Assembly: GCF_000816845.1 (NCBI RefSeq)
Contig: NZ_CP006880.1
Span: forward strand, 62,001 to 126,000
DNA length: 64,000 nt
Origin: Rhizobium gallicum bv. gallicum R602sp
Lineage (GTDB): Bacteria > Pseudomonadota > Alphaproteobacteria > Rhizobiales > Rhizobiaceae
Reading direction: 5' to 3'
A model generated the notes under the pieces. That model saw only the letters and a list, made by a program, of their open reading frames with translations. It was not told the DNA's origin and ran no database searches. The position numbers and the translations under genes were made by a program. Positions 34,996 through 49,913 of this stretch are shown one piece after another (position 1 is the first letter of the stretch; the number at the start of each line of letters is the position of its first letter).

Positions 34996-36000
34996 CTATT
35001 CAAACAAACGGGAACTCCAGTAGAAGAGAGCCGAGATGAGGGCCGCGGCTGGAAGCGTGACAACCCAGGCAATGACGATGTTTCCGGCCAGCCCCCAGCG
35101 CACCGCCGAAAGCCGTCTTGCGGCACCGACACCGATGATTGCGCCGGTGATCGTATGCGTGGTCGAGACGGGAATACCGAGCCATGTGGCGCCGAAAAGC
35201 GTCAGCGCGCCGCCCGTTTCGGCGCAAAATCCCTGCATCGGGTTGAGGCGAGTAATCTTGGAGCCCATCGTATGGACGATGCGCCAGCCGCCGAAAAGCG
35301 TTCCGAGCGCCATTGCCGCCTGGCAGGAGAGCACCACCCAAAACGGCACATGAAAACTTTGGCCGAGATAACCCTGCGAATAAAGCAGGACTGCAATGAT
35401 GCCCATCGTCTTTTGCGCATCATTGCCTCCGTGGCCAAGCGAGTAGAGCGAGGCCGAGACAAATTGCATGACGCGAAACGTACGATCGACGGCAAAGGGC
35501 GTCTGACGTACAAAAATCCACGAGACGACGAGCACCAGAACAAGCGCGAGGAAAAAGCCAATCATAGGCGACATGACGATGGCGCCCGCCGTCTTGAGCA
35601 GACCGCTCCAGACAATCGAGCTTAAGCCTGTCTTGGCAAGTCCCGCGCCAACCAGCCCGCCGACCAGGGCGTGAGAGGAGCTTGAGGGAATGCCGAACAT
35701 CCACGTGACAATGTTCCAGATGATCGCGCCCATCAGCGCCGCAAATATCACCTGCGGCGTGACAATACTCGGATTGATGATGCCGGTTCCAAGGGTCTCT
35801 GCGACATGCAGCCCGAAGAACAGGAATGCTATGAAATTGAAGAAAGCTGCCCAAAAGACAGCATAGTGCGGTCGCAGCACGCGGGTCGAAACGATGGTTG
35901 CGATCGAGTTGGCGGCGTCGTGCAGGCCGTTCAGAAAATCAAAGAACAGGGCAATCCCGATGAGGCCCACAAGCAGGGGGAAGGCAAGTGTAACCTCCAT
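34996..36000 (-). CDS. pit: Low-affinity inorganic phosphate transporter (Pit)
   Basis: A 334-residue permease with about ten helices and the two PiT signature repeats: GLHDAANSIATIVSTR near the N-terminus and GGNDAQKTMGIIAV in the middle. It moves metal-phosphate complexes driven by the proton gradient. Its start codon abuts the stop of the upstream DUF47 gene, the usual rhizobial pap-pit arrangement. Confidence 0.94.
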   Translation of the reverse strand: MEVTLAFPLLVGLIGIALFFDFLNGLHDAANSIATIVSTRVLRPHYAVFWAAFFNFIAFLFFGLHVAETLGTGIINPSIVTPQVIFAALMGAIIWNIVTWMFGIPSSSSHALVGGLVGAGLAKTGLSSIVWSGLLKTAGAIVMSPMIGFFLALVLVLVVSWIFVRQTPFAVDRTFRVMQFVSASLYSLGHGGNDAQKTMGIIAVLLYSQGYLGQSFHVPFWVVLSCQAAMALGTLFGGWRIVHTMGSKITRLNPMQGFCAETGGALTLFGATWLGIPVSTTHTITGAIIGVGAARRLSAVRWGLAGNIVIAWVVTLPAAALISALFYWSSRLFE

Positions 36001-36647
36001 CAGACGTTCTCGATCACGATACCGCTGATCTCGTTGGCGACGTCCTCGAAGCGATCGACGACCCTCTCCAGCTCACCATAAATCTCGCTGCCGATAATAT
36101 AGGCCATTGGATCCGAGGTGCCGTAGCGGCTGAAGAGATCCTTGAGGCCCCGGTCATGCAGATCGTCCGAACGACCTTCGACCCGAGTGACCTCTTCGGC
36201 GATGGCTGTAAGCCGAGGCGCATTGGATCCTATCCGGTCGAGTAGCGGAATAGCTTCCGCTATCAGATGTGCCGCCTGGACGATGGTCGCACCCATCTCC
36301 TGCATGCCCGGATCGAACGAAGTCTGCTGAAACAGACGGATGGTCTTGACCGTCTTTTGCATCATGTCGATCGCGTCATCCATCGATTGGATGAGATCCT
36401 TGATGTCGCCACGATCGAAAGGAGTGATGAAGCTTCTCCTGATGGCAAGCATCACCTCGCGCGTGATTTCGTCAGCTTCATTCTCAAGACGAACGATCGT
36501 CTCGCAATGGCGCTCGATCTCGCTGCCAGCTAACAACTGGTTCAAGGCTTCGGCAGCTCCGACTACGGTGCGCGAATGTTGCGCGAAGAGATCGAAGAAA
36601 CGATCTTCACGCGGCATGAGTCTACGAAACCAGCTGATCATCGACAT
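36000..36647 (-). CDS. pap: DUF47/PhoU-like phosphate transport accessory protein
   Basis: A 215-residue all-helical DUF47 protein (FFDLFAQHSRTVVGAAEAL, ENEADEITREVM, DREDI-like region PFDRGDIKDLIQSMDDAIDMM). PhoU-like helix bundles bind metals and modulate Pit transport. It is the promoter-proximal gene of the two-gene operon and shares one base with pit. The gene name follows the pap-pit nomenclature of rhizobia. Confidence 0.92.
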   Translation of the reverse strand: MSMISWFRRLMPREDRFFDLFAQHSRTVVGAAEALNQLLAGSEIERHCETIVRLENEADEITREVMLAIRRSFITPFDRGDIKDLIQSMDDAIDMMQKTVKTIRLFQQTSFDPGMQEMGATIVQAAHLIAEAIPLLDRIGSNAPRLTAIAEEVTRVEGRSDDLHDRGLKDLFSRYGTSDPMAYIIGSEIYGELERVVDRFEDVANEISGIVIENV

Positions 36648-37214
36648 CCCATTTAACTGTCACAAATCTGTCATAATGGAGCGATGCCGGTGTGAAAAGC
36701 ACCCGGTATCCTTGTTTTGGGGATAGTCGCAAACAGGTTACACATTCTGGGTTCATTGTGTTGGCGCAAGCCTGCGCAAGTACATCGACGATCGATCTCA
36801 AAAATCGACGACAATGCGGCGCAGGGACCGTCCATCCCTCAGCGATCTCGTTCGCCGCCCTTCTGGCCGATATTTACATCGACATTTCGACAGTTTGCCC
36901 ACCGCGAGGACATCATGATGCTTCTGAATGCTTGCTCATGCGAATGGCTCGCTCGATTGGTATGGCGAAAACTTTGCAAAGCAGCGTCGCCGCGGATCCC
37001 AGTCGGGAAAAGCCTGAGCATTATCGTCAGGAAAGCAGCGCGGCGGCAGACAGCCCGGTGAACCGCAGGACTTTAACGATCTGAATGGGCAGTGTGATGC
37101 CGCAAAGCGGATTTTTGCCTTTGCCTTGCATTCAGAAGCGTCTATTTATGTCGCCGCAAGTTCCGATTTGGCGCACCAGGGTGCGGCAGGATTAAATGAT
37201 CAAAGGAAGACGCT
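36648..37214. other. Intergenic region upstream of pap-pit and csp
   Basis: 567 bases with no convincing gene; open frames here have unlikely composition. It must contain the pap-pit promoter (reverse) near 36650-36720, where TGTCACAAATCTGTCATAAT resembles a pho-type direct repeat of TGTCA-like units, and the csp promoter with a long leader (forward). AAAGGAAGACGCT is the csp ribosome site. Confidence 0.45.
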
Positions 37215-37421
37215 ATGGCGACGGGTACCGTGAAGTGGTTCAATGCAACAAAAGGGTTTGGCTTCATCCAGCCCGATGACGGCAGCGGCGATGTCTTCGT
37301 TCACATTTCCGCGGTCGAGCGGGCCGGCCTGCGTGGCCTCAACGACGGCCAGAAGATTACCTATGAGCTGGTCAAGGATCGCAAGTCCGGCAAGATGTCG
37401 GCGGACAACCTGCAGGCCTGA
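37215..37421 (+). CDS. Cold-shock protein (CspA family)
   Basis: A 68-residue OB-fold protein with both RNA-binding motifs, KGFGFI (RNP1) and VFVHI (RNP2). It begins [15 protein letters not shown]. It binds single-stranded RNA or DNA and melts structure. It is monocistronic, followed by a strong terminator. Confidence 0.96.
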
Positions 37422-37443
37422 CGCCGATTGATCCGACAGTACG

Positions 37444-37467
37444 AAGGCCGGGTTCGCCCGGCCTTTT
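37444..37467 (+). terminator. Rho-independent terminator of csp
   Basis: AAGGCCGGG-TTCG-CCCGGCCTT forms a perfect 9-bp stem with a stable UUCG tetraloop, followed by TT and a pyrimidine-rich tail, 23 bp after the csp stop. Confidence 0.85.
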
Positions 37468-37687
37468 CCGCTTGCAGAAGGTTCGGACATCGAAGCAGCT
37501 CTGTTACCGCGCGTTTGGGCGGCAAACTCAAACGCAGGCGTGATTTTCGACCGTGTTAAGCGCCTGACGCGGGGCCGGAAGGGAATTCTTGTCGGCTCGC
37601 TTTGTGCGCGCCAGCTCTTGATCGATACGTTCTTCCACGCACAGATCATGAGAGATCTGCCCACCAAGGCGAGATAGATGGCGCTCG

Positions 37688-38158
37688 TCAGGTCTGGCGA
37701 TCCCGTCTGAGAAGGGCGGCGCGGATCTGTTCAGTCTTGCTTGGGGGAGCTGGGGAAGCGGCCGGCTCGATACTGGAGGCGCTGTTCTCGTCGTTGCCTC
37801 GTTTCAGGCTGAGAAAGCGTTGCTGCGCAACAAGGCGGTCTTCGGTCGAAAGTGGTTCCACCGGCTTGCCATCGATATCATGGCGCATCGAGCCAGGTTG
37901 GGCGCTCGCGAAATAGTACCGTTTTGAGTGGACAAAGGAGCCAACGGCTCGGCGCAATGCCGTCGCTTTGACATCAGGCTTTGCCAGCGCACGGATATCG
38001 TTGAAGAGGCCGAGGGCGAAGGGACGGATCGGATCGCCTGGCTTATTGGGGAGAATGCCGATCGGACGGATCAGCAGTACGCGGATCGCCTCTGCCTTTT
38101 GAACATCGAACTCTGTTGCTACGATCGGTCCGTGGCTGACGGTCCAGGGTTTGTCCAT
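37688..38158 (-). CDS. ProQ/FinO-domain RNA-binding protein
   Basis: A 156-residue protein whose residues about 25-115 match the ProQ/FinO fold: IRPFALGLFNDIRALAKP, then ALRRAVGSFVHSKRYYFAS, then MRHDIDGKPVEPLSTEDR. The C-terminus is short, disordered and basic. FinO proteins protect antisense RNAs that repress F-plasmid transfer, and ProQ proteins bind structured sRNAs. On this conjugative replicon it is a candidate fertility-control or plasmid-host sRNA chaperone. Only the domain assignment is supported by sequence. Confidence 0.85.
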   Translation of the reverse strand: MDKPWTVSHGPIVATEFDVQKAEAIRVLLIRPIGILPNKPGDPIRPFALGLFNDIRALAKPDVKATALRRAVGSFVHSKRYYFASAQPGSMRHDIDGKPVEPLSTEDRLVAQQRFLSLKRGNDENSASSIEPAASPAPPSKTEQIRAALLRRDRQT

Positions 38159-38352
38159 GAGCTCCTACCTTGCGCTTCTTTTCACTACGGATCGATTGTG
38201 AAGAGACGTTGACAGCAGGTCTAATCTTCTAGATTTCCGCTGGCGGCGCTTTATCTAAACGTACACGGGCATTTCGCAAATAGCCCCCTGGCGCGGTTTA
38301 AGCGGCCGCCCGCCCTTAAGGTGGGGAGGAAATGAAGATTTGGGAGCAAGCC

Positions 38353-38619
38353 ATGTGCAGAAACATAAGAACGCTGTTCAATTTCGATCCGCCGGCGACG
38401 GACGAGGAAATCCATGACGCTGCGCTGCAGTTCGTGCGAAAGCTGAGCGGTACGACCAAACCGGCGAAACGCAATGAGGCGGCGTTCGAGCGCGCGGTCG
38501 GTTCGATCGCGGCATGTGCCCGCGAACTGCTCGATGCGCTCGAAACGTCGCAACAGCCGCGCAACCGCGAGGAAGAAGCCGCAAAAGCGCGGGCGAGAAG
38601 TCTGACCCGGTTCGCGTGA
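38353..38619 (+). CDS. DUF2277 family protein
   Basis: An 88-residue protein starting with the family hallmark MCRNIRTLFNFDPPATDEEI and continuing LQFVRKLSGTTKP and NEAAFERAVGSIA. The Cys-Arg N-terminus and FNFDPPAT are conserved in DUF2277; its function is unknown. The ATG at 38353 has GGAG upstream and gives the conserved N-terminus; seven extra codons upstream are not used by relatives. It is the left-most plus-strand gene of the inferred leading region. Confidence 0.9.
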   Translation: MCRNIRTLFNFDPPATDEEIHDAALQFVRKLSGTTKPAKRNEAAFERAVGSIAACARELLDALETSQQPRNREEEAAKARARSLTRFA

Positions 38620-39490
38620 TTGCGCCGGACGGTCGGGCCTGCCGCCGCGAGCTGAGTTCAGCCTTCCAGGCGGGAGAGGCAGGCGCTCACAAGAGCGGTC
38701 TGGCCCATCTGGCACGTCGACTTCCGCGTAAAAAATAAGGGGGCACCCTCGGTGTCTCCCGCGGAAAGCTTGCCGGCGCAGTCGGTGAAAAATTCCAGTT
38801 CCAACGGCCTAATTTAACGGGGCACGTCATCGCACCGATCGCCAAGGTATAAAGAATCGCTAACCTGGACGATGCCCCGCGCCCTATCATCGGCGTCGTC
38901 GCATCGCCGAAGGGCAACTGCATGTCAAACGTCTGCGGCCTTCCTAAGACAAATCGCGCCCTCGTACTGAACCCGAATGCTGCGCGGTCGTGCGATGAAA
39001 ATCCATCGATGATCGCGGCCGGCGCGCCAGCCTTGCGACGGTTTTGCACCAGAATGGACAGCTTGATCTGCCCAACCGCGCCTTTGAGCTGAAGTAGGTG
39101 CGGCAAACCGACTTCAAGATCCGGCGTGGGTTGCCTGGAAAGATCCACCGCATCACACGACGACATCATCGACATCGCACGGTCACGGGCACGACCGGGC
39201 CGCTGACGAGGTCACCGCGGCCGTTCTTACCAGCACGATCTTGCGAGATCGTTCTTCAAGTCATCGGATTCGGCACGATGTTGCCCCAGCCGTCGAACAA
39301 TCCCTGCGTGCTGCGACCATCGCGTCCTGCCCCGGGTTTAGGTCCTGTCGGGCCCGCGCCGCCCCGCAACGGCTTTGCCGTCCTCCACGTCCGTTCCGGC
39401 CCTATCGGGTGCTGGCCTGCGCTTGCAGCCCGACATTCGGACCGCCGTAGCAGGTCGCGATGGTCGCGGCCTCGAAACGGAGCTTTCGAC
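38620..39490. other. Region without a supported gene; ArdC leader at right
   Basis: 871 bases in which no frame is convincing. A 162-codon reverse frame (38687-39175) and short forward frames have mixed features and no ribosome site; they could be decayed remnants. The last 150 bases are a GC-rich leader before ArdC, including CGATGGTCGCGGCC at 39458-39471, which resembles motifs before DUF736 and the 55-residue gene. Confidence 0.4.
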
Positions 39491-40414
39491 ATGAGCAGGC
39501 AACAAACTCACCAACGATCCGACATCTACAGCCGCATCACCGACAAGATCATCGCCGAACTCGAACAGGGGGTGCGGCCCTGGATTAAGCCCTGGAGATC
39601 AGCACATGCGAACGACCGGATCACCCGGCCTTTGCGCCACAACGGCCAACCCTATTCTGGCATCAACGTCCTGCTTCTGTGGTCAGAGGCGATCGCCCGC
39701 GGCTTCACCTCGCCAACCTGGATGACGTTTCGCCAGGCCCGCGAACTGGGAGCTGCGGTTCGCAAGGGCGAGACCGGCACGTTGATCGTCTTCGCCAGTT
39801 CCTTCATCCTTACCGAAACCAACGACATGGGCGAAGACGTTGAGCGCAATATCCCGTTTCTCAAGCCGTACACGGTCTTCAACGTCGATCAGATTGCCGG
39901 ACTGGATGCGCGCTTCCATCAGGTCACACCGGTTCAGGATCCAATTGTCCGTATCGGACATGCCGATCGCTTCTTTGCAAACACCGGCGCACTGATCCGG
40001 CACGGCGGATCGACGGCATACTATGCCCCAGCCCGTGATTACATCCAGATGCCAGCCTTGGAAGCCTTCCGCGACGCTGCGTCCTATGTTGCGATCCTCA
40101 GTCACGAAATGACCCACTGGACGGCGGCGCCACACCGACTGGATCGCGATCTCAGCCGCTATGCCAGGGATCAAAGCGAACGCGCCCGCGAGGAACTGAT
40201 CGCCGAGCTCGGCAGTTGCTTCCTTTGCGCTGATCTCGGCATCGTTCCCGAACTCGAGCCGCGGCCCGATCATGCGAGCTATCTTGACGCCTGGCTCAAG
40301 GTTCTCGCCAGCGACAAGCGTGCAATTTTTGTCGCGGCCGGTCATGCGCAGCGCGCTGTCAGCTACCTGCACCACTTGCAACCAGATCAGATAGACGAAG
40401 GGGCGGCGGTGTAA
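39491..40414 (+). CDS. ardC: ArdC-like antirestriction protein
   Basis: A 307-residue protein. The N-terminal ssDNA-binding DUF1738 half reads IYSRITDKIIAELEQGVRPWIKPW and NGQPYSGINVLLLW. The C-terminal zincin metalloprotease half contains HEMTH (H205, E206, H209) and a downstream Glu in REELIAELGSCF. ArdC proteins protect incoming plasmid DNA from host restriction early after conjugation. The chosen ATG starts directly before the conserved N-terminus; an in-frame upstream extension is low complexity. It lies on the strand that would use the transferred strand as template. Confidence 0.93.
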   Translation: MSRQQTHQRSDIYSRITDKIIAELEQGVRPWIKPWRSAHANDRITRPLRHNGQPYSGINVLLLWSEAIARGFTSPTWMTFRQARELGAAVRKGETGTLIVFASSFILTETNDMGEDVERNIPFLKPYTVFNVDQIAGLDARFHQVTPVQDPIVRIGHADRFFANTGALIRHGGSTAYYAPARDYIQMPALEAFRDAASYVAILSHEMTHWTAAPHRLDRDLSRYARDQSERAREELIAELGSCFLCADLGIVPELEPRPDHASYLDAWLKVLASDKRAIFVAAGHAQRAVSYLHHLQPDQIDEGAAV

Positions 40415-41252
40415 GCCGCGTTCCCACTCCGTCCGGCCGCCGATTTCTGCCGTGCGCAATTTGCGCGCGGCGCGTTGATGATCGTCGATGCCGAAGATCT
40501 GCAGAGGCCCGACTTCGGCAAAACGCAAGTGCATGCAACCTGTGGCATGCACATCCGCCAGGCGCTACGCCCAGTCCACGCTGTCCATGGCGGACGGATC
40601 GACCTCACCCGATGATGAGGCGGGGACATCCTCGCCTTGCGGTGGGGCCGGAGCCGTATCGGCTTTGCCCGTCGCCGTGATCAGATGAGGTGGTTTCCGC
40701 AATGCGGCCGGGCCGCAAAGGCAGGATCGGAAGCGGTCGAGATTGCCGGATGTGACGAGAGAATCTCGAACTTCCGCCGCGAATCTCTTTCATACCGGCC
40801 GCGACTTGGCCGCTGGAGGACCGATGACAATCGGCAGCATCGGCAAAGGCCCCGACCGAATAAGTGGACACGCTCCTTGGTGTGCCGAAAACGCTGCCCT
40901 GAACGACGTTGCCTTTGCTGGCGTGTGAACGACGATGCGTCTCGCCTCGGTCCCCTCCTCTTCTACATGCGTGCGCCGACGCAGACCTCGATGAGGCTGG
41001 TGTGACCGACGGACGACTGCGTCTCGATCAACTGACCGCAACGGGCGTCTCCGGCTTTTTTCCGCCGCCTCCGGCTTTGCATCGCGAAACAAAAAAGCCG
41101 GGCCTGCCCGCCTTCCACTACGTTCCAGCCCGTCCACCCCGCTGCGCAGGCGCAACGGGGCCCCGGCGGGTGCGTTGGCGATCGCCCCCGGTCCTTCCAC
41201 CGCCATCGAGGCCGCGATGGGCGCGGCTCGAGCAACGGAAAGGAACGAGATC
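40415..41252. other. Non-coding or decayed region before DUF736
   Basis: 838 bases with no gene I can support. A 34-codon frame (40824-40928, starting MTIGSIGKGPDRISG) is too short to judge. The final 170 bases are GC-rich leader sequence, with CGATGGGCGCGGCT at 41215-41228, matching the leaders of ardC and the 55-residue gene. Confidence 0.4.
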
Positions 41253-41567
41253 ATGGCAGTCATCGGCGAATTCATCACCAACGGCAACGTCATCCAGGGC
41301 AACGTCCGCACTCTGACGGTTGCCATGAAGGTCCGCCTGCACTCGATCGAGCGAGTCTCGCGCGACGCCCCGGACTTCCGAGCCGTATCCAACGGCGCCG
41401 AAGTCGGAGCCGGATGGAAGGCGGTCTCGGGCAGCGGCGAGCCCTATATCTCGCTCAAGCTCGACGACCCGAGCTTCAACGCTCCGATCAGCGCGGCACT
41501 GTGGCCGGCCGAAGCCGACGGCGACTATGTCCTCGTCTGGTCTCGCCCGAACCGTGAAGCAGCCTGA
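41253..41567 (+). CDS. DUF736 family protein
   Basis: A 104-residue protein with the DUF736 start MAVIGEFITNGNVIQGNVRT and end ISAALWPAEADGDYVLVWSR. DUF736 proteins are small beta-rich plasmid proteins common in rhizobia and sphingomonads, often near transfer genes; their role is unknown. The ATG at 41253 has AAAGGAACGAG upstream. The long GC-rich leader is shared in style with its plus-strand neighbours. Confidence 0.92.
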   Translation: MAVIGEFITNGNVIQGNVRTLTVAMKVRLHSIERVSRDAPDFRAVSNGAEVGAGWKAVSGSGEPYISLKLDDPSFNAPISAALWPAEADGDYVLVWSRPNREAA

Positions 41568-41581
41568 ACCAAGGCATCGGA

Positions 41582-41603
41582 GGCCCTGCCGAAAGGCGGG
41601 GCC
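41582..41603 (+). terminator. Possible terminator after DUF736
   Basis: GGCCCTGCC-GAAA-GGCGGGGCC forms a 9-bp stem with one G-T pair and a GNRA loop, 14 bp after the stop codon, followed by TTCCCC. The weak T-run lowers confidence. Confidence 0.55.
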
Positions 41604-41886
41604 TTCCCCGCATGGTGAAGCCGAAAGCAGGCATTGAGCCCGCTTCCGGCTTTTCGGGTGCCACAGGGGAACTAAAATCTGCTCAGTCCGTCCAAGCGTG
41701 CCATGGCGGAATGAAGGCCTCAAGGACGAGCGGTTCCCCCAAATTTCATCCGCTGCCCCTGCGTGGCCGCGTCAAAAATTCGGCTCCCCCACTCGCCGGC
41801 TCCGCCGGTCGCGTTCCGCGCTCCTTGACCCCTGCATTCCGCGATGACCGGGGCCGTCGTCTTTCACAAACATCAAGGAGACGACA
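41604..41886. other. GC-rich leader before the 55-residue gene
   Basis: No gene is seen in these 283 bases. They contain a small CCGGC/GCCGG hairpin (41796-41808) and CGATGACCGGGGCC at 41842-41855, the third member of the leader motif found before ardC and DUF736. AAGGAGACGACA is the ribosome site. Confidence 0.45.
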
Positions 41887-42054
41887 ATGACGAACGAACT
41901 CGACCGCACCATCGAAGAACTCAAGGCCGAACTGCGGAACGCCGATGCAGCCGAACGCCGCCAGATCTACGCCGAACTTGAACTGGCGCTCGCCGAACGC
42001 GAGGTCATGGTAGCCGAGCAGGAAGGCCGCATCAGCGCTGAGCCTCCGTTCTGA
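41887..42054 (+). CDS. Small charged helical protein (55 aa)
   Basis: A 55-residue protein (MTNELDRTIEELKAELRN, then AAERRQIYAELELALAERE) predicted as one long helix with heptad-like Leu/Ala spacing, probably a small coiled coil. AAGGAG lies 7 bases before the ATG. Similar short proteins accompany DUF736 genes on rhizobial plasmids. Function is unknown; early establishment or DNA-protein interaction is possible. Confidence 0.7.
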   Translation: MTNELDRTIEELKAELRNADAAERRQIYAELELALAEREVMVAEQEGRISAEPPF

Positions 42055-42290
42055 AGGAGGCTTTCGCCATGCGGACCGCCGGATCGACCGGCGCATCGGT
42101 TCGAAGCTTCAGGCTGGCGATCGAGGTCGCTTTTTTGTCGAGATCGACATAGCCATCGAGACTGATAGGGTTAAGCCCGATGAAGCGCCTTCGAGGCCCG
42201 CTCCTTCGGCTTCATGTCGACAACCAGGGCAGGGGAGTTGGTCGGCGCCGATTGATTCACGACAGTGATGCGTAAGGCGGGTTTGGTGAT

Positions 42291-43496
42291 TTAACTTGGT
42301 TCCCCGGGCAGTGATGGCATTTCGCCGTCAGAGACACGCCAAACCCACGCCGCCAAGTCGGGCCGCGCCTCGATCATCTCCGCCAGGGTCGCCTCGAACC
42401 CGTCATCGGCGTTCGGCGGAACGATATAGAGCGCCATCGGCTGAGGGCGCAGTTCCGGGAGGATCGCATTTGCGAACGGCTGGCTGCGGGCGAGATTGAA
42501 GCGCAATCCCTTTACCGTTTTGCCGCGGAACCGCACGAGTTTTTCGAGGAGCCGTTCCTCATGGGCATCCTCGATCGGCAGCCAATGCTCGGTCACGGTC
42601 ATCAGCGCGATCTCATTGATCGATACGAAGCCCGCAGCGAGACCCTCGATCGTTGCGATCGCAACCAGATGGGAATTCTCGTTGTGCCTCCATAATGCCA
42701 GTTCGACCTCGAAGCGCCGCTGCAGACGCCGCCACGCTATCTCCTCCAGATGCAAGCGGAAACCCGGCATCTGCTTGATGACGAGTTGTTGGCCGCTTCT
42801 GGCCGAGGTGAACTCTTTTATCTCCCCAGCCAGCAGCATCATCTTTTTGCCTCCTGCATCCGAGCGAAACAGCCTGCTCATCGCCTGCGCGCGTCGTTGC
42901 TCGATCGCAATCTTGCCGTCGGCTCGAAACGGCTCCGGCACAAACAAGCGCTCCGCCAGGATTTCTCCTCGCACCGACAGGGTGCGGGCGGCCTCGCAAA
43001 GATGATGATAGACCTGCCACCAATGCCGCTTGCCAGCCCAATGCACCGTCCACTCCGTCAGGCCGCTTTCATGCCAGAGAAGGTGAAGCAGCGCACGCAG
43101 CGACAATCTCCTGCTGTCGTTCGTCACACTGTCGGCTTGCGTGCCGCCCACGCCTGTACCCCTCGACGATCCGCGTTTGGAAAGCGAGAAAGCGAGCTTG
43201 AGGGCGGCGGTTCCAGCTGCGGCATCCGGCTTGATTGCGCTACCGATCAGAGCGCCCAGCCCGGTCAGTTCATAGGGCGGCTCATAGGAGGGGCAGGCCG
43301 GGTCATGGTCGCTGCCAGAAAGAGGCATTCTCTTGATCACAAGCTGATTGCCGATGTTAGCGATATACATTGCGACGCCCGGTTCTCTGCAAAGGCATAG
43401 CGGCCGAAGTTTGTCTCGATAGGACCGGGTCACGCACTCCTGGAAACTCTCGGCATCTTCTGTTTGTATTTCGCCGCCGATCAGGAACTGTCGCAT
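42291..43496 (-). CDS. DUF1173 family plasmid protein
   Basis: A 401-residue protein of the DUF1173 type known from Agrobacterium and Rhizobium plasmids. The N-terminal part has a conserved Cys-rich patch (LRPLCLCREPG, DPACPSYEP). The central part LLHLLWHESGLTEWTVHW and the C-terminal half (FRLHLEEIAWRRLQRRFE) are also recognisable. Function is unknown. The start at 43496 has GGAG upstream. It follows the ParA/RHH genes on the same strand with about 50 bp spacing, so it may belong to the same transfer-initiation operon. Confidence 0.85.
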   Translation of the reverse strand: MRQFLIGGEIQTEDAESFQECVTRSYRDKLRPLCLCREPGVAMYIANIGNQLVIKRMPLSGSDHDPACPSYEPPYELTGLGALIGSAIKPDAAAGTAALKLAFSLSKRGSSRGTGVGGTQADSVTNDSRRLSLRALLHLLWHESGLTEWTVHWAGKRHWWQVYHHLCEAARTLSVRGEILAERLFVPEPFRADGKIAIEQRRAQAMSRLFRSDAGGKKMMLLAGEIKEFTSARSGQQLVIKQMPGFRLHLEEIAWRRLQRRFEVELALWRHNENSHLVAIATIEGLAAGFVSINEIALMTVTEHWLPIEDAHEERLLEKLVRFRGKTVKGLRFNLARSQPFANAILPELRPQPMALYIVPPNADDGFEATLAEMIEARPDLAAWVWRVSDGEMPSLPGEPS

Positions 43497-43543
43497 GGTT
43501 CGAACTCCATTCACCGCGCTGTCCGGAAGCGGAGCTGCTGCCT

Positions 43544-43936
43544 TCAATAGCCGTTTTCCTTGAGATAGAAGTCGATCGCGGCCTTCATGACAGCAGCCAT
43601 CTTGAGATCGTTCTCATCGGCCGCCCGTTTCAGGCGTGCTTTCGTCGCCTGATCCAGCGCGACGTTGACATAGAACTTGATCTCCCGCTGCTTGGCTCGC
43701 TTGAGGTTCTTGAGACTGGAACGCGCATCCTCTCGTATCGCGGCCCGGTCTCTCGCACGTTTCTCCTGCTCGGCCGGGGTGCGCTTCGTCAGCATTGCCG
43801 GCGATGCATCGGCCTCGGTCTGGGTGCTCTCCTCCTCGGGTCGCTCTGCACCCACCGGTCCGGCAGAGGGAACCGGCTTTGCCGTAGACTTCGCCGCAAT
43901 CGTGAAGTCGCTGAGATACAGCCCGCCCTTGCTCAC
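43544..43936 (-). CDS. Ribbon-helix-helix partner of ParA-like ATPase
   Basis: A 130-residue protein with a disordered N-terminal half rich in Ala, Pro and Glu. The C-terminal ribbon-helix-helix-like domain reads EIKFYVNVALDQATKARLKRAADENDLKMAAVMKAAIDFYL. It overlaps the ParA-like gene by 4 nt. The pair resembles VirC1/VirC2 of Ti plasmids (VirC2 is also RHH) or small type Ib partition pairs. It probably binds DNA near oriT or a centromere site. Confidence 0.75.
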   Translation of the reverse strand: MSKGGLYLSDFTIAAKSTAKPVPSAGPVGAERPEEESTQTEADASPAMLTKRTPAEQEKRARDRAAIREDARSSLKNLKRAKQREIKFYVNVALDQATKARLKRAADENDLKMAAVMKAAIDFYLKENGY

Positions 43937-44640
43937 CTTGCAGCTCCCTTTTGGCCGCCGCGCTTGCTCTCGATTTCGTCCACAAGGGTCTGCACTTCCA
44001 GCCGGGCCTTTCTCACAGGATCGGTCAGTTCCTGCATCTGCAGCGTCCCGAGCCCGTTTTGAATTTCCCGATAAACGTTGCGCTCGAACAGCTCGGTATC
44101 GAGAAGGGCTGTCTGGTAACCAGCCTCCTGCAGGCCTGCGACGAAGGGTCGGACATAGCGATAGGCTTCAAGGTTGCGTCCGGGCACGGTAATCCGTGTT
44201 CTGACATTCAGGTGCATGATGTCCAAGCCGCCACGATCGTTGATTTCGTTGACGCTCGCCGCAGCCTGTCCGGCCGCCTCGATCTCCTTGATGCCGGGTT
44301 GAATGGGAGACAGAACGAGTTCGGAGGAACCGATGATCGTTTCCTGCACCGTGCTGTCGACGCCTGGCGCATCGATGATGATCACGTCGAAACTCACACT
44401 TGAACGCAAGATCTCCGCCTCAATTGATCGATGCGAGGCCGCAATGACGACATCGATATTTTCCGGCACGTTCTCCTTGCTGTGGCAAAGTTTCCACCAG
44501 CCGGTCAGGTTGAGCCTGCCGTCGGCGTCAATCAAAAGCACCCGCCCGCCACGCAGCGCGTATTCGCCCGCGATCAAGGTGACCAGTGTCGTCTTGCCGG
44601 CTCCGCCCTTGCTGCTCACAGCGGCATAGATCCTGCCCAT
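43933..44640 (-). CDS. ParA/VirC1-like ATPase
   Basis: A 235-residue MinD/ParA-fold ATPase with deviant Walker A SKGGAGKTT (residues 10-18), Walker A' (LLIDADGRLNLTGWWKL) and Walker B FDVIIIDAPG. The size and the GWW segment recall VirC1, which recruits the relaxosome to the T4SS pole, more than RepA-type ParA proteins of about 400 residues. Location next to oriT, with an RHH partner, favours a transfer-initiation role. Simple plasmid partition is the alternative. Confidence 0.8.
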   Translation of the reverse strand: MGRIYAAVSSKGGAGKTTLVTLIAGEYALRGGRVLLIDADGRLNLTGWWKLCHSKENVPENIDVVIAASHRSIEAEILRSSVSFDVIIIDAPGVDSTVQETIIGSSELVLSPIQPGIKEIEAAGQAAASVNEINDRGGLDIMHLNVRTRITVPGRNLEAYRYVRPFVAGLQEAGYQTALLDTELFERNVYREIQNGLGTLQMQELTDPVRKARLEVQTLVDEIESKRGGQKGAAR

Positions 44641-45095
44641 ACCCGCTTCTCCTTCCCTGGAAAATGAACGTCCGCTCTCTCGCGCGTCGGTTCTGATGAG
44701 AATAAATATTATTCTATTTCCGCTTCCGTCAAGCCATCTTTTGCAACGCGATAGTCGCTGTAGCGGTGAGGTTTTCCTTCATATTCATATTGGCGTTTCA
44801 CACGATGTTTTCGCATCGATCAGCGATGTAGACACGCCATTTAACAAATTTAATCAATAATATGGTGACGAAGCACTATATGAGAGTGCCGATCGATGCT
44901 TTGGTGCCGGAGAGCGACATTAAACGAAAATGTCGATTTTCAGACGTGCAAAAGTTCTGCAAGCAGGGCTTGAGCATTGGAATAAAAACGGTAAACTTGC
45001 ATTTGGCAGGATACGCAATTTTGTGATACAAATTGCTGATGATCGACGGACGAGCCGTCGATGGGCGCCTGCGGCGCTTCGTTAGGGAGGCAGAG
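44641..45095. other. Transfer origin region between divergent mobilisation operons
   Basis: 455 bases without a gene between the parA-like and mobC genes. It is AT-rich (for example AATAAATATTATTCTATTT near 44700 and a TTTAATCAATAATAT stretch near 44850), which suits promoters and strand opening. It contains the predicted nic site and inverted repeat at 45005-45036 and a GACATT/AATGTC inverted repeat near 44918-44934. Confidence 0.7.
45005..45036 (-). other. oriT: Predicted oriT core: inverted repeat plus nic site
   Basis: On the minus strand, the inverted repeat GCAATTTGT-ATC-ACAAAATTGC (one bulged base; 45015-45036) is followed immediately by GTATCCTGCC. TATCCTG/C matches the IncP/VirD2 relaxase cleavage consensus (ATCCTG/C). 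The predicted nick lies between 45007 and 45006 on the minus strand. A MOBP-type relaxase and MobC are encoded 60-500 bp away. The transferred strand would run from 45006 toward lower coordinates. Confidence 0.75.
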
Positions 45096-45506
45096 ATGGC
45101 GGTGGACAGTCGAGGCGCGGTGGCGCTGGGATCGCCCGACGGGCGGAAGGATCGGGTCGTGCACGCCCGCTTTAGCGCCTGCGAACTTGCCGCCATCGAC
45201 GCCGCTGCCGAGGTTTCTGGCCTGACGGTTTCCGCCTTCATGCGCTCGCTGACGCTGGAAGGGGCAGGTGTACGCCCATTCCTGACCGACGACGATCGTG
45301 CGGTCTTCGAGATGCTGATTTCGGACATGCGGTCGGTTGGGGTGAACCTCAATCAGCTTGCCCGCAGTGCAAACGCCAGTGGTCGTCTCTCCGATGCCGA
45401 CCTTGCGCTCGAACTGAGGGAGGTTCAGCGACTCGTCGCAGCGGTGGTTCTGGAGCTGAGAAGCTACGCGGCACGGGGCGTGCGGCGGCGCCGGGGAGCG
45501 ACGTGA
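45096..45506 (+). CDS. MobC-like relaxosome accessory protein
   Basis: A 136-residue MobC-family protein. It has an RHH-like N-terminal part (VVHARFSACELAAIDAAAEVSGLTV) and the MobC signature MRSVGVNLNQLARSAN. MobC proteins bind oriT and help open the nick region for the relaxase. The ATG at 45096 has GGGAGG upstream; an alternative in-frame start lies at 45033. It overlaps the relaxase start. Confidence 0.88.
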   Translation: MAVDSRGAVALGSPDGRKDRVVHARFSACELAAIDAAAEVSGLTVSAFMRSLTLEGAGVRPFLTDDDRAVFEMLISDMRSVGVNLNQLARSANASGRLSDADLALELREVQRLVAAVVLELRSYAARGVRRRRGAT

Positions 45507-47899
45507 TGGAGTTCTTTCCAGGCGCGTTCGAGACCGACTGGGAACGGCGGAAGACGGTGCTCTTGCGCGAGCAGTCACTTCTTCACCGGAGATTTACGGA
45601 CGAGGATGAACTCCGTCGCCGGGGAGGCGTCGTGCCGACGGCATCGCCGCTGCCCGGCAGCGGTGCCGGACGCCTAGGCTTTGGAAAGAGGTCCGGCATC
45701 TTTGCTCGGGCCAAGAGGCAGGGCCACGCGTCCGAGCCATCCATGCGATCCCGTTTTGCAGGGCTCGCTTCGGGCAGTCAGCCGGCTGTCGTCAAGATGG
45801 CGTCTTTCGGCGGCGGTGGGCGGCTCGGGGCGATGGTCAACTACGTCTCGCGCAATGGCGGTATCGTCGTCGAAAACGAGCGGGGCGAGCAACTTAAAGG
45901 ACGCGATGAGCTGGCGACTGTCCGCGCCGAATGGGACCATCTGATGAAGAACCGCGCTGAGAGCCGGGACATCGGCGCCTTCTCGCTTGAGGTGAAGGAG
46001 CCCGCCGATCCGGCTGTGGATGTTCACGAGCGGGCGCGGGTGTTGCTCAAACGCGGGTTTGGCGACCGGAGCTTTGCCTATGCAGTCACGCCGCACGATG
46101 ACGGGAATGGTTATCGGATCGAAGGTGTGACCATCCTGCGCGACAGTGAAGGCGAGCGGCTCACTGGCGATAAGAAGGCATCGGAGATCGTACAGGGTCG
46201 TCTGGGCGGGGAGGGAGCAGAGCAAGAAGAGAAAATGGCCTTTCGTTTTTCCGGCTACGGGAATGGAGGCGCCTACGGATTGAGCCGACTGCGCGACCTG
46301 GTCGACCGGCATCATGGTGCCGTCCAGGATGACAAGGGCAATGCAATCGCCGATGCAAAGCAGGCGGGTGATCTGGTGCAGCTCGAATGGCGCGATCAGC
46401 TTCACAGTCGCAAGCCCCGCGATGTCATGCATGTGATCATGTCGGCGCGAGCCGGGACCGATGTTCAGGCGTTTCATGCGGCCGCTCGTGACTTCCTGGC
46501 CCAGGAGTTCGCCGGTCATCGCTATGTTTTTTCCCTCCACGATCCTTTCCAGGATCCAAAGGCGGAGGATGCGGGAGGCAAGCGGCCGCATGTGCATGTC
46601 CACGCCATCGTTGCGATGCGCTCGGATGCCGGCGACAGAATCGAGACGACCATTCCTGCTTTCCGCCGCTGGAGGGTAACGCTGGCGGAGAAAGCGCGTG
46701 CCCGCGGCATCCGCATGGAAATGACGGACCGACGCGAGCGGGCGAGTGCTGCCGTCTACACCAGGAACCAGGTCCGTCCCACCAGCCGGGCTGGCCGCAC
46801 GCAGCACGAGGGGACGAGCCCCGCAGCGCAACTGCGCTATGATGCGAAACGAGCGGATCGGCAGAGTGTCGCACGGACGGAAGAGAGCAGGATTTATTCT
46901 AATTCCGCCCGCCAGGAATGGTTGACGCTCGCGAGAAAAGCCCAGGATTCCGATGTGCGACAGTTTGCGTCCAATCAGATAAAGCGACTGGAATCAGCAG
47001 CTTCTCGGATCAAGTCGGTTGAGACGGAGGGATCCGGAAACGGAAATTTCTACTCGCAATTCAGAACAAGTTTGGTAAAGTTGATGAAAGTCGTTTCGGA
47101 GGGCGAGACCATGCGCCACATGACACGTCAGGAATTCGAAGTCTACGAGAAGCGAGTCGAAACAGCGCTGCTCCAAGCCGAGCGCGTCACGCCCGACGAG
47201 CAAAGGAAGAGCTTCCACGAAATCGCTACAGCGGCTCGCGAGCATGTCAATGTCCGGCGTGAGTTGATGGAACTGAGGGAACGGTCTGTTCCGCCTGAGC
47301 GAGATGGCGAGCGCGCGGCCCGGGAACAGGACGACGACCCCCGCACCCGCTGGGACGATGCCGTCGGCCGTCATGGATTGCGCGCGGTCGAGACGGCCAA
47401 TCAGGTCATGGTGGAGGTCGAGCGCTACCGGGACGAGATCGAGAAAGCTGAATTCGGGAAGCTCGATTCCCAGAAGGCAACACTGGAAGCCGGTCTGCAG
47501 CGGGAGATCGCAAAGGCTGCCGAGCTCGGTGCCGCCGGCAATACGCTGATCCGGGAGATCGCCCAGGTTGACGAAGAGTTGCGGCTTGCGATCGAGCGGG
47601 CGGAACATTCGCGCGACGGTCGCAACAAGCCCAAGGCCACGGAAATGAGAAGTGTAGATACCCGGGCCGAAATGAACGAAGACATCGGACATGGCGACGG
47701 CCCCGCTCGCCGACCGGCCGACCCTGAGCAGGAGCGTGACCTGGCCGATCCTGATCGCGCGCGACAGGAACATTTAACGACCCGGGCCGGTGACACCACC
47801 CGTACGGATCCGGCGCAGCAGCACATACAGCGGCTTGAGCAAATCCAGCGCGAGGCTGACGAGAAAAGAGAACAGGATCGCGACGAGCGCGAGCGATAG
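45506..47899 (+). CDS. MOBP-type relaxase
   Basis: A 797-residue relaxase. Motif I has Tyr113 in GAMVNYVSRNGG. A motif II-like segment is DVMHVIMSARAGTD. Motif III, the metal-binding His triad, is H362-V-H364-V-H366 in RPHVHVHAIVAM. About 100 residues precede the Tyr, and the stretch between Tyr and the His triad is long (about 250 residues). The C-terminal half is helical and highly charged, with coiled-coil tendency. It would nick oriT, stay bound to the 5' end and be exported by the T4SS via VirD4. The ATG shares a base with the mobC stop. Confidence 0.9.
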   Translation: MEFFPGAFETDWERRKTVLLREQSLLHRRFTDEDELRRRGGVVPTASPLPGSGAGRLGFGKRSGIFARAKRQGHASEPSMRSRFAGLASGSQPAVVKMASFGGGGRLGAMVNYVSRNGGIVVENERGEQLKGRDELATVRAEWDHLMKNRAESRDIGAFSLEVKEPADPAVDVHERARVLLKRGFGDRSFAYAVTPHDDGNGYRIEGVTILRDSEGERLTGDKKASEIVQGRLGGEGAEQEEKMAFRFSGYGNGGAYGLSRLRDLVDRHHGAVQDDKGNAIADAKQAGDLVQLEWRDQLHSRKPRDVMHVIMSARAGTDVQAFHAAARDFLAQEFAGHRYVFSLHDPFQDPKAEDAGGKRPHVHVHAIVAMRSDAGDRIETTIPAFRRWRVTLAEKARARGIRMEMTDRRERASAAVYTRNQVRPTSRAGRTQHEGTSPAAQLRYDAKRADRQSVARTEESRIYSNSARQEWLTLARKAQDSDVRQFASNQIKRLESAASRIKSVETEGSGNGNFYSQFRTSLVKLMKVVSEGETMRHMTRQEFEVYEKRVETALLQAERVTPDEQRKSFHEIATAAREHVNVRRELMELRERSVPPERDGERAAREQDDDPRTRWDDAVGRHGLRAVETANQVMVEVERYRDEIEKAEFGKLDSQKATLEAGLQREIAKAAELGAAGNTLIREIAQVDEELRLAIERAEHSRDGRNKPKATEMRSVDTRAEMNEDIGHGDGPARRPADPEQERDLADPDRARQEHLTTRAGDTTRTDPAQQHIQRLEQIQREADEKREQDRDERER

Positions 47900-48507: not shown

Positions 48508-49137
48508 TTACAGCACGATGGCAATATCGGCGCGACCAGCGAAACCTAATATCTGACGCATTTCGTCGATGTTCCCATAAATCGAGGTCTTGCTGATTGC
48601 GCTAAGGTCGGATTCGAAGACTCGATCTCCGAACAACAGCAAAGCTTGTTGTGGGTCGCAGCGTTTCGATGTCCAGATCAAGCCGTGCGCATCCGGCCTG
48701 TTCTGGTGGATTGCGAGAGCCCACGCAGCAGTCGTGGCATAGGAAGCGGCCGTCGTGTCGATCAGATCCGCCCGTGTAATGCGCCACCTGGCAAGGTCTG
48801 GCGCGAATAATGGCACCAGCACGATGTCTCGTTTGATCTCGACAACTGAGTGTGAAAGCGGTTTGATATTGTCGGCACCAACGGTTTTGTTCGGCTCGTC
48901 GATCGGGACATCGTGGAAGATGGTCTCGTGGGCGGCGCATTCGAAATTGGTGGCAAGGTATTGCGTCGGGATCGGCTTGCCGCTCAGAAAGAGCGGGGCG
49001 AAACGACTCGGCCGTCCCTTTCCCGGATTGAACGCGCAGCTATCGAACCGCTGGTCATGGACGCGATGAAACCTCGTTCCCACCTTGATCCCGTGTGAGT
49101 TCGAGGCGGGAAACGGTGAAGGTGGCTGGGAGATCAT
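48508..49137 (-). CDS. RES-domain toxin
   Basis: A 209-residue RES-domain protein: GTRFHRVHDQRFDSCAFNPGKG carries the conserved Arg and early motif, YLATNFECAAHETIFHD the conserved Glu, and RADLIDTTAASYATTAAWA with DAHGLIWTSKRCDPQQALLLFGDR the later motifs. RES toxins degrade or modify NAD+. It follows the putative antitoxin with a 4-nt overlap (ATGA), the standard order for RES-Xre modules. It probably stabilises the plasmid. Confidence 0.85.
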   Translation of the reverse strand: MISQPPSPFPASNSHGIKVGTRFHRVHDQRFDSCAFNPGKGRPSRFAPLFLSGKPIPTQYLATNFECAAHETIFHDVPIDEPNKTVGADNIKPLSHSVVEIKRDIVLVPLFAPDLARWRITRADLIDTTAASYATTAAWALAIHQNRPDAHGLIWTSKRCDPQQALLLFGDRVFESDLSAISKTSIYGNIDEMRQILGFAGRADIAIVL

Positions 49138-49913
49138 CCGATGATGTCTTCCGCCTCGTGCGCCGCAGCCTGCGCCACAGCCTTGGTGTCCTTGATGACG
49201 TCGACTGGTCGCTTGCCATCAAGCCAGCCATTCGGCGAGGTGAACCAGAAGGCTAACTGCCAGCCGGATTTCCTTTCGCCGAGCAACGCGAGAACCTTGC
49301 CGACCGTCTCGAGAGGCTGTCCGTCCTCGAACTGGAAGGCGGGAAAGTACTCGGCACCACCGTGTTTGATAGGGAATACCTTACCCTTCGCCTTCCAGCG
49401 CGAAGCAGTCATGCTCTTGTTCTTCGATCCGTGTCCTGCAGCATCAGCCAGGTCCTTGCTGGTGAAGCCCGGCCATTCCTGGAGGAAGCGTGCCCTTGCC
49501 TTGGCGTTGCTGTCGTAGAGCAGTCTCTCGACCTCAACGTTTGGAGCGGTGCGCATATATACGGATACCAGGGCGTCGATTGCATCGTCCGTCAACTTGC
49601 TTTGCCGGGCCTCAATAATACCGGGGACGTGCTCGACGATGTCACGGATTGTGTCCCGAACCGCTTGGTTAGGGGTCTCAACCACCACGACCATCGTGTC
49701 GTCGACGCCGGCCCCTGGTTTGGATCGCACAACCTTGGCCATCGCATTGCGCAGCTTTGATGCGAAAGCGGATGCCGGGCCTGTTCGGAGGTTGCGCTTG
49801 ACGGCAATCTTTCTGGCCTTCGCTTCGCTCCTAGGAGAAGAGTCCATCTCAGTCTGCAGCGCATCCGCGAACTCTTTACCATTGTAGATGCGAAGATCCT
49901 TAGAGACGATCAT
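49134..49913 (-). CDS. Extended Xre/MbcA/ParS-like antitoxin of the RES module
   Basis: A 259-residue protein. The C-terminal part (about residues 160-259: TASRWKAKGKVFPIKHGG, YFPAFQFEDGQPLETVGKVLALLG, WQLAFWFTSPNGWLDGKRPVDV) matches the toxin-neutralising domain of RES-associated antitoxins. The roughly 150-residue N-terminal part is not a typical Xre HTH: it is basic, followed by ETPNQAVRDTIRDIVEHVPGI and a helical region. Usual antitoxins in this group have about 110-160 residues, so the extension is notable. It is coupled to the toxin gene by a 4-nt overlap. Confidence 0.75.
   Translation of the reverse strand: MIVSKDLRIYNGKEFADALQTEMDSSPRSEAKARKIAVKRNLRTGPASAFASKLRNAMAKVVRSKPGAGVDDTMVVVVETPNQAVRDTIRDIVEHVPGIIEARQSKLTDDAIDALVSVYMRTAPNVEVERLLYDSNAKARARFLQEWPGFTSKDLADAAGHGSKNKSMTASRWKAKGKVFPIKHGGAEYFPAFQFEDGQPLETVGKVLALLGERKSGWQLAFWFTSPNGWLDGKRPVDVIKDTKAVAQAAAHEAEDIIG

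Follow-up and report, generated by a model that had tools for sequence, protein, structure and literature searches.

We find that the leader of p55, an open reading frame (ORF) of 55 aa on a rhizobial megaplasmid (41887-42054, plus strand), is probably a sigma-70-type promoter that acts from single-stranded DNA (ssDNA) during conjugation, working like Frpo of plasmid F. The window, by which we mean the whole stretch analyzed, comprises 64,000 nt of Rhizobium gallicum bv. gallicum R602sp (positions 62001-126000 of contig NZ_CP006880.1, 2.47 Mb long in a genome of 7.3 Mb), and coordinates below refer to it. A sequence-only reading of this DNA had placed the genes for ArdC, DUF736, the 55-residue protein, and DUF2277 all on the plus strand, in agreement with our ORFs and domain matches, and had suggested that leaders in this region resemble Frpo or single-strand initiation sites (ssi). 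The suggestion is well supported for p55, because covariation, strand-specific wobble pairs, and -35/-10 boxes agree. It stood less well elsewhere: The strand evidence for the DUF736 and ArdC leaders is mixed and boxes are missing, and for a single-strand promoter of DUF2277 there is no case beyond orientation.

The leaders of p55, DUF736, and ArdC are conserved far past chance. BLAST searches of 72,556 plasmid records matched them in 620, 527, and 430 records, respectively, and 297 genomes of the same family gave 72, 120, and 64. An order-wide draw of 297 genomes, which includes members of the own genus and family, gave 10 for the p55 leader and 22 for the ArdC leader. The DUF736 leader in three loci (L014, L015, and L016) is 76%-79% identical, versus 42%-44% for the protein. 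We collected leaders from 170 loci and the window and merged those >95% alike, leaving 42 for p55, 72 for DUF736, and 46 for ArdC; the p55 counts use 41 of the 42, the leader of L114, which breaks off, having been dropped. RNAalifold results on the first alignments were blurred by misalignment, and we therefore used single-sequence folds, stem detection giving G.T and A.C equal weight, and counts over named structures.

The p55 leader folds on the minus strand into a structured domain (41681..41855) composed of outer stems P1/P2, two small hairpins, and stems P3 and P4 with a 5x5 purine internal loop between them. Folded alone, the leader of the window reached -42.9 kcal/mol on the minus strand (z -2.74) and -35.8 on the plus strand (z -1.66). 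The minus strand was the more stable in all 42 leaders (mean z -3.79 vs. -1.92), and the difference exceeded that expected from composition in 38 of them (mean z difference -2.61). Folding the leaders as single strands and looking for conserved hairpins in related plasmids, as the sequence-only reading had advised, uncovered covariation, with both sides changed at 24 of 47 pairs among the 41 aligned leaders. In this structure 92.1% of cells were paired (30.5%-50.5% when slid), a value reached by none of 500 shuffles, and wobbles numbered 157 G.T on the minus strand versus 14 A.C, the latter being G.T on the plus strand. Since the 47 pairs had been taken from the minus fold, we recounted wobbles on the 43 domain pairs common to the window folds of both strands; this unbiased set again favored the minus strand (73 vs. 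11 wobbles; 21 vs. 4 pairs, sign test p 0.0009), as did the 20 sequences left when each 80% cluster was represented once (36 vs. 9). In the plus-strand consensus fold, with the start-codon hairpin included, A.C was still ahead of G.T (88 to 74). Given this minus-strand preference, present also in the unbiased sets, the conserved fold is very probably best read as a structure of the strand transferred in conjugation. At the outer edge of the domain, the hexamer GCTCAG (41681-41686) was shared by 18 of 19 leaders in the first, unanchored alignment; it served as an anchor when the p55 alignment was cut.

The 3' arm of the fold reads GTCC-TTGAGG-17 nt-CANNNT on the minus strand. It holds a putative -35 box, TTGAGG (41718..41723), whose first T and the G are each found in 41 of 41 leaders, and, after a spacer of 17 nt, a putative -10 box, CACGCT (41695..41700; mostly [C/T]ANNNT in the family), with A(-11) and T(-7) each in 38 of 41. 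The -10 starts at the last pair of P1 and extends beyond it, and is predicted to be mostly unpaired; the spacer varies in sequence and is nearly constant in length. When the entire aligned domain was scanned for a conserved TTG with A(-11)/T(-7) 15-19 nt later, a single place qualified, with a spacer of 17. The -35 anchor is present in 39 of the 41 leaders. Of these 39, 34 also have A(-11) and T(-7) (14% in shuffles), with a 17-nt spacer in 30; the opposite strand of this stem shows a similar TTGACC, which is accompanied by such a -10 in one of 39. The predicted 5' untranslated region (UTR) of the p55 mRNA follows (41856..41886, plus strand) and contains a Shine-Dalgarno hairpin, GTCGTC...GACGAC. 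In this ribosome-binding-site hairpin 12 wobbles fit the plus strand versus four the minus strand (33 leaders), as expected if the segment just past the predicted start acts as RNA. We infer from the sequence that the mRNA starts at about 41857-41862.

Strand assignment came from the origin of transfer (oriT). GGCAGGATACGCAATTTTGTGATACAAATTGC, flanked by a ParA/VirC1-like gene on one side and a mobC/relaxase pair on the other, reads TATCCTG^CC on the minus strand (45006..45013), which we take from the RP4 consensus to be an RP4/MOBP-like nic cut between 45007 and 45006. An imperfect inverted repeat (45015-45036) adjoins it on the side staying behind, and the MobC-like and relaxase genes (45096..47899, plus strand) are on the trailing side. 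The features sought of a MOBP-type oriT, namely a TATCCTG^C nic, an adjacent inverted repeat, and a relaxase gene alongside, were found. The relaxase has the HVHVH motif, with a MobP1 match under the cut-off (29.9 of 200 bits), and homologues of the gene pair are annotated as mobC and TraA in L044 and L055. The nic (GGCAGGATA) was identical in sequence and orientation in all four mobC-type loci read (window, L044, L046, and L055). Four Ti-type traA loci have an RSF1010-like nic, (A/G)AGGGCG[C/T]A..ATACGTCGC, likewise on the minus strand, with the cut presumably at GCG^CCC; the copy in L052 is a variant recognized by eye, and L045 and L053 have an additional bare GCGCCC elsewhere on the plus strand, that is, in the opposite orientation.

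With nics of two unrelated types on the minus strand in eight of eight loci read, minus is the predicted transferred strand and the left side is the leading region. Leader and oriT orientations were also concordant in 11 of 11 plasmid records among the matches listed for both (compared by hand, with one pair spanning the record start). The predicted transferred strand is the one the sequence-only reading had named, minus read toward low coordinates, and the opposite orientation, by which that reading could have been refuted, did not turn up in these loci and records apart from the two bare hexamers. Taken together, the sequence comparisons support the orientation of oriT, the assignment of the leading region, and the template-strand logic, also on other plasmids. 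The genes between p55 and oriT (DUF1173, a small protein, and the ParA/VirC1-like gene; 42291..44640) are on the minus strand and cannot be expressed with the transferred strand as template, and p55 is the first recognized plus-strand gene that this strand brings in.

We propose the following mechanism. The transferred strand would enter 5' end first, and the region below oriT would fold. The 3' arm of the p55 domain would act as the non-template strand, presenting a double-stranded -35 TTGAGG and, 17 nt on, a mostly unpaired -10 CANNNT, to which a sigma-70-type RNA polymerase of the recipient could bind. The 5' arm would be the template, and since it runs on into the p55 antisense sequence, the resulting RNA would be the p55 mRNA, a short message beginning about 27 nt ahead of the ATG with its ribosome-binding site ready. 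Second-strand synthesis would remove the hairpin, and the boxes, once in duplex form, would be directed away from p55; expression of p55 would then be a brief pulse.

Elements of this kind may extend beyond p55. A profile of the p55 leader (nhmmer) gave 90 hits in the loci, a count in which overlapping loci enter more than once, and 60 of these were beside detected p55 genes. Among the 30 hits lacking a detected p55 gene we kept 22 as a second type, leaving out one p55-type leader in L042, one near-identical copy, and hits in L063, L152, L117, L119, L114, and L105. Second-type elements stand before small genes other than p55, several of which belong to one family (..MVLANRL..). Their -35 reads TTGACG or TTGAGG, a spacer of 15-16 nt leads to A(-11)/T(-7) in 19 of 22 (18% in shuffles), and the -10 falls in a predicted bubble. 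In 18 of 22 the minus strand was favored by more than composition explains (mean z difference -1.16), and wobbles over the minus-strand consensus fit that strand by 97 to 38; altogether, the strand evidence for this type is moderate. Examples with a better -10 (TACAAT, TAAAAT) are found at L046:16768-16942, L184:1501-1666 and 2498-2665, L066:2041-2165, and L058:2648-2788.

A covariance model of the minus strand was run on 24 sources and gave 14 hits at E <1e-9, none of them on the plus strand. Ten of the hits were training sequences; the window domain, itself a training sequence, scored 166.9 bits. The model found three copies in this genome and matches in nine of 190 alphaproteobacterial genomes, the own genome included, and its matches extended to additional alphaproteobacterial families, where small genes of several kinds follow them. 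Eleven matches were not training sequences; one of these is counted in the 22 second-type elements as well. These remote matches had the -35 anchor in 10 of 11, a -10 (e.g., TACGAT, TACAAT) in 10 of 10, and a stricter pattern in eight of 11. An ORF followed 30-48 nt downstream in 10 of 11, from several protein families, and wobbles favored the minus strand by 23 to four, though counted on an alignment to the model's own structure.

Folded ssDNA that serves RNA polymerase as a promoter-like site is known from the single-strand origins (sso) of rolling-circle plasmids and integrative and conjugative elements (ICEs), and bacteriophage N4 has ssDNA hairpin promoters, short hairpins with stable small loops that are used by a polymerase of its own. 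The p55 leader differs from an sso in having a coding gene with a ribosome-binding site directly downstream, and from the N4 promoters in its sigma-70-type boxes. Frpo1/2 of F rebuild -35 and -10 by folding and are required for early expression (Couturier 2023, PMC9849209). In the same account F carries two copies of Frpo, and the p55 element shares with them a place in the leading region, a gene directed toward oriT, and a stem of the transferred strand that would rebuild -35/-10. We examined nine Frpo copies as a control (F Frpo2, its paralogue, and seven homologues). The transferred strand was more stable in nine of nine, and composition shuffles gave a mean strand difference of z -2.07 (nine of nine), close to the -2.61 of the p55 leader; consensus counts were 55 G.T and 4 A.C on the transferred strand and 19 and 7 on the plus strand. 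In other respects the two differ: The p55 domain is branched and ∼175 nt long, whereas Frpo is one long hairpin; p55 elements precede a 55-aa gene, Frpo precedes ssb; and the former are on plasmids with a MOBP- or MOBQ-type oriT, the latter on MOBF plasmids. No similarity to the three leaders (blastn) or to the p55 profile (nhmmer) was found in the F leading region.

The other two leaders form the weaker part of our case. DUF736 and ArdC leaders could represent a second class that does the same job or primes second-strand synthesis; that they share a single-strand promoter function seems to us, from their sequences, to fall a little short of an even chance. The DUF736 leader domain (41004..41193, minus strand; ends placed by eye) has a long-range stem and hairpins. 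Unbiased stem detection on 67 leaders gave its best support to the long-range stem (58 minus vs. six plus wobbles) and an A/T stem (40 vs. eight). In DUF736 leaders the minus-strand triloop is GNA in 33 of 40 (the pattern fits 40 of the 72 leaders), and that of the plus strand never is. The ArdC leader (39314..39488, minus strand; nhmmer E 4.5e-29) likewise has GNA triloops on the minus strand in 28 of 41 and none on the plus strand, the window's own triloop being AAA. GNA loops stabilize DNA hairpins. A DUF736 box candidate picked by eye, TCGAGG-17-CAGACM, was rejected, as it has no T(-7), its -35 is outside plain duplex, and the scan was negative. At 41134-41164 the window has an extra hairpin (CCACCCCG..CGGGGCCCC) that is inserted in some DUF736 leaders and absent from other relatives.

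The motif CGATG-N5-GGCY, which the sequence-only reading had taken for a common element of the three leaders, is present at the positions named (39458, 41215, and 41842, i.e., 33, 38, and 45 bp before the ATGs), and a shared promoter role could not be upheld. The window has nine occurrences, with 3.0 expected by shuffling, and the whole genome has 194 in which an ATG follows within 10-30 nt. Among the leaders, nine of 46 for ArdC, 34 of 72 for DUF736, and one of 42 for p55, that of the window, have it no more than 70 nt from the start. We rejected it as a common promoter on these counts. Before ArdC and DUF736 the motif is part of a hairpin adjoining the start codon. The DUF736 hairpin (41210..41228, plus strand) has wobbles that fit the mRNA strand (21 plus, six minus, in 62 of 72 leaders); for ArdC the counts were six and four in the hairpin, and 39 versus five for the start-codon stem over the whole alignment.

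Several other explanations of the p55 leader were weighed. A conserved fold of the transferred strand suits an ssi/sso equally well, at which RNA polymerase or primase would prime complementary-strand synthesis and p55 expression would be incidental; Frpo has been described as both promoter and primer site, in the title of a 1997 paper. We nevertheless consider this unlikely, given that a short ORF with a Shine-Dalgarno-like sequence stands at 30-48 nt from 10 of the 11 remote matches, in several families, and that the wobble preference switches to mRNA sense just ahead of the p55 ATG. Minus-strand G.T wobbles would also be produced by a minus-strand transcript, a structured antisense or regulatory RNA with a conserved fold. 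The boxes inside the domain, however, would start an RNA downstream that excludes the domain; the GNA triloops of the sister leaders are confined to the minus strand; and the orientation to oriT is constant where seen, all of which makes this explanation improbable.

The plus-strand wobbles of the start-codon hairpins and of the ArdC stem, together with plus-strand consensus folds of DUF736 and ArdC that favor G.T, would be expected of ordinary structured 5' UTRs (riboregulators) on mRNAs that start at duplex promoters farther upstream. In the main p55 domain the preference is reversed (11 plus vs. 73 minus wobbles), the best-supported DUF736 stems also favor the minus strand, and a search of Rfam with 36000-46000 found nothing at E ≤1; we regard such an origin as very improbable. 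High conservation over about 200 bp could in principle reflect duplex DNA, such as operators or repeated elements with no single-strand function, yet that account predicts no wobble bias toward one strand, and it is barely conceivable in view of the 24 of 47 doubly changed pairs and a spacer fixed in length and variable in sequence.

Some observations weigh against a single-strand promoter. The sequences are related, so the cells we counted are non-independent events, and the p55 signal was weaker on the unbiased pair set than on the structure derived from the minus fold. Only 21 of 37 p55 leaders have a GNA triloop (GGA). The window's -10 matches TATAAT at only two of six positions, and spacer length is inconsistent: p55 leaders have 17 nt, second-type elements 15-16, and several remote members 18-19. 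A search for a duplex promoter at 38000-42300 found none, which says little with 0.7 expected by chance. Over the plus-strand consensus of the second type, wobbles fit the plus strand by 81 to 54. For the sister leaders, the energy difference between strands is small (z -0.37 for DUF736, -0.29 for ArdC), and the consensus fold of each strand favors its own wobbles: G.T exceeded A.C by 173 to 103 on the plus strand and by 320 to 112 on the minus strand for DUF736, and by 89 to 72 and 84 to 38 for ArdC. A scan for -35/-10 boxes found none in 67 DUF736 and 45 ArdC aligned leaders.

If the p55 leader is indeed a single-strand promoter, then symbiosis, Ti/Ri, and other plasmids of the Rhizobiaceae would express genes before becoming double-stranded; a p55-leader match is present in 620 plasmid records. 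A wider reading, tentative and rather doubtful, is that alphaproteobacterial conjugative plasmids have a multi-copy single-strand promoter system of their own, unrelated to Frpo in sequence, that runs an ordered antirestriction and establishment program. One of its two architectures would be a branched sigma-70-type hairpin promoter, placed before p55 and a number of further small genes; the other, before ArdC and DUF736, would be a three-way junction with DNA-specific GNA triloops, initiating without recognizable boxes. BLAST-based surveys with Frpo sequences would miss a family that has no sequence similarity to Frpo. Samuel 2024 used BLAST with known Frpo/ssi and a structure-based search in four islands, and its main text has no word beginning Rhizob, Agrobacterium, ArdC, or DUF736. 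In a 2026 survey the BLAST queries were Frpo sequences, both known and candidate, and its accessible portion has no word beginning Rhizob, Agrobacterium, or Alphaproteobacteria. Among the top-ranked titles in searches of the open-licence literature (PMC), we found none on single-strand promoters in rhizobial plasmids. Wobbles that fit only the transferred strand offer a homology-free way to look for such promoters.

The genes downstream from these leaders recur as a module. In 14 annotated relative loci the recurrent order is helicase, ParB-like, hypotheticals, ArdC, toxin-antitoxin, DUF736, and p55, then a few opposite-strand genes and, where the stretch reaches that far, oriT. There are many local losses, L050 and L051 differ, and L055 lacks the module; ArdC, DUF736, and p55 are directed toward oriT. 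In the window the antirestriction gene ArdC (39491-40414) has ArdcN and zincin domains, DUF736 (PF05284) is at 41253-41567, and p55 is acidic (14 D+E vs. seven K+R), with PF27469 in its relatives. ArdC of R388 is reported to be required in the recipient. The DUF2277 gene (PF10041; 38353-38619, plus strand) shares the orientation; we rejected it as a module member, with no gene of that name in the annotated stretches of the 14 relatives, and no conserved leader is apparent in the sequence, although no separate search for one was made.

Finally, we noted several features beside these elements. The p55-type leader of pTi-SAKURA (L042:14521-14716) is kept with no p55 gene behind it, by annotation or tblastn, and pXAUT01 (L045:17034-17191) has a second p55 paralogue with its own element ∼4 kb closer to oriT. 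A Novosphingobium plasmid (L050:4282-4459) has a partial DUF736-type leader match ahead of a DUF2493 gene, and the tie of this leader class to DUF736 may not be exclusive. Genes for a coupling protein and a VirB4-type protein of a type IV secretion system are to the right of the relaxase. The stretch that separates the relaxase and coupling-protein genes holds, at 48508-49913, a gene with a RES domain and one resembling an Xre/ParS-type antitoxin, the latter by a match below the cut-off. Beyond DUF2277 there is a ProQ/FinO-family gene (37688-38158, minus strand); FinO-like proteins regulate conjugation in other systems.

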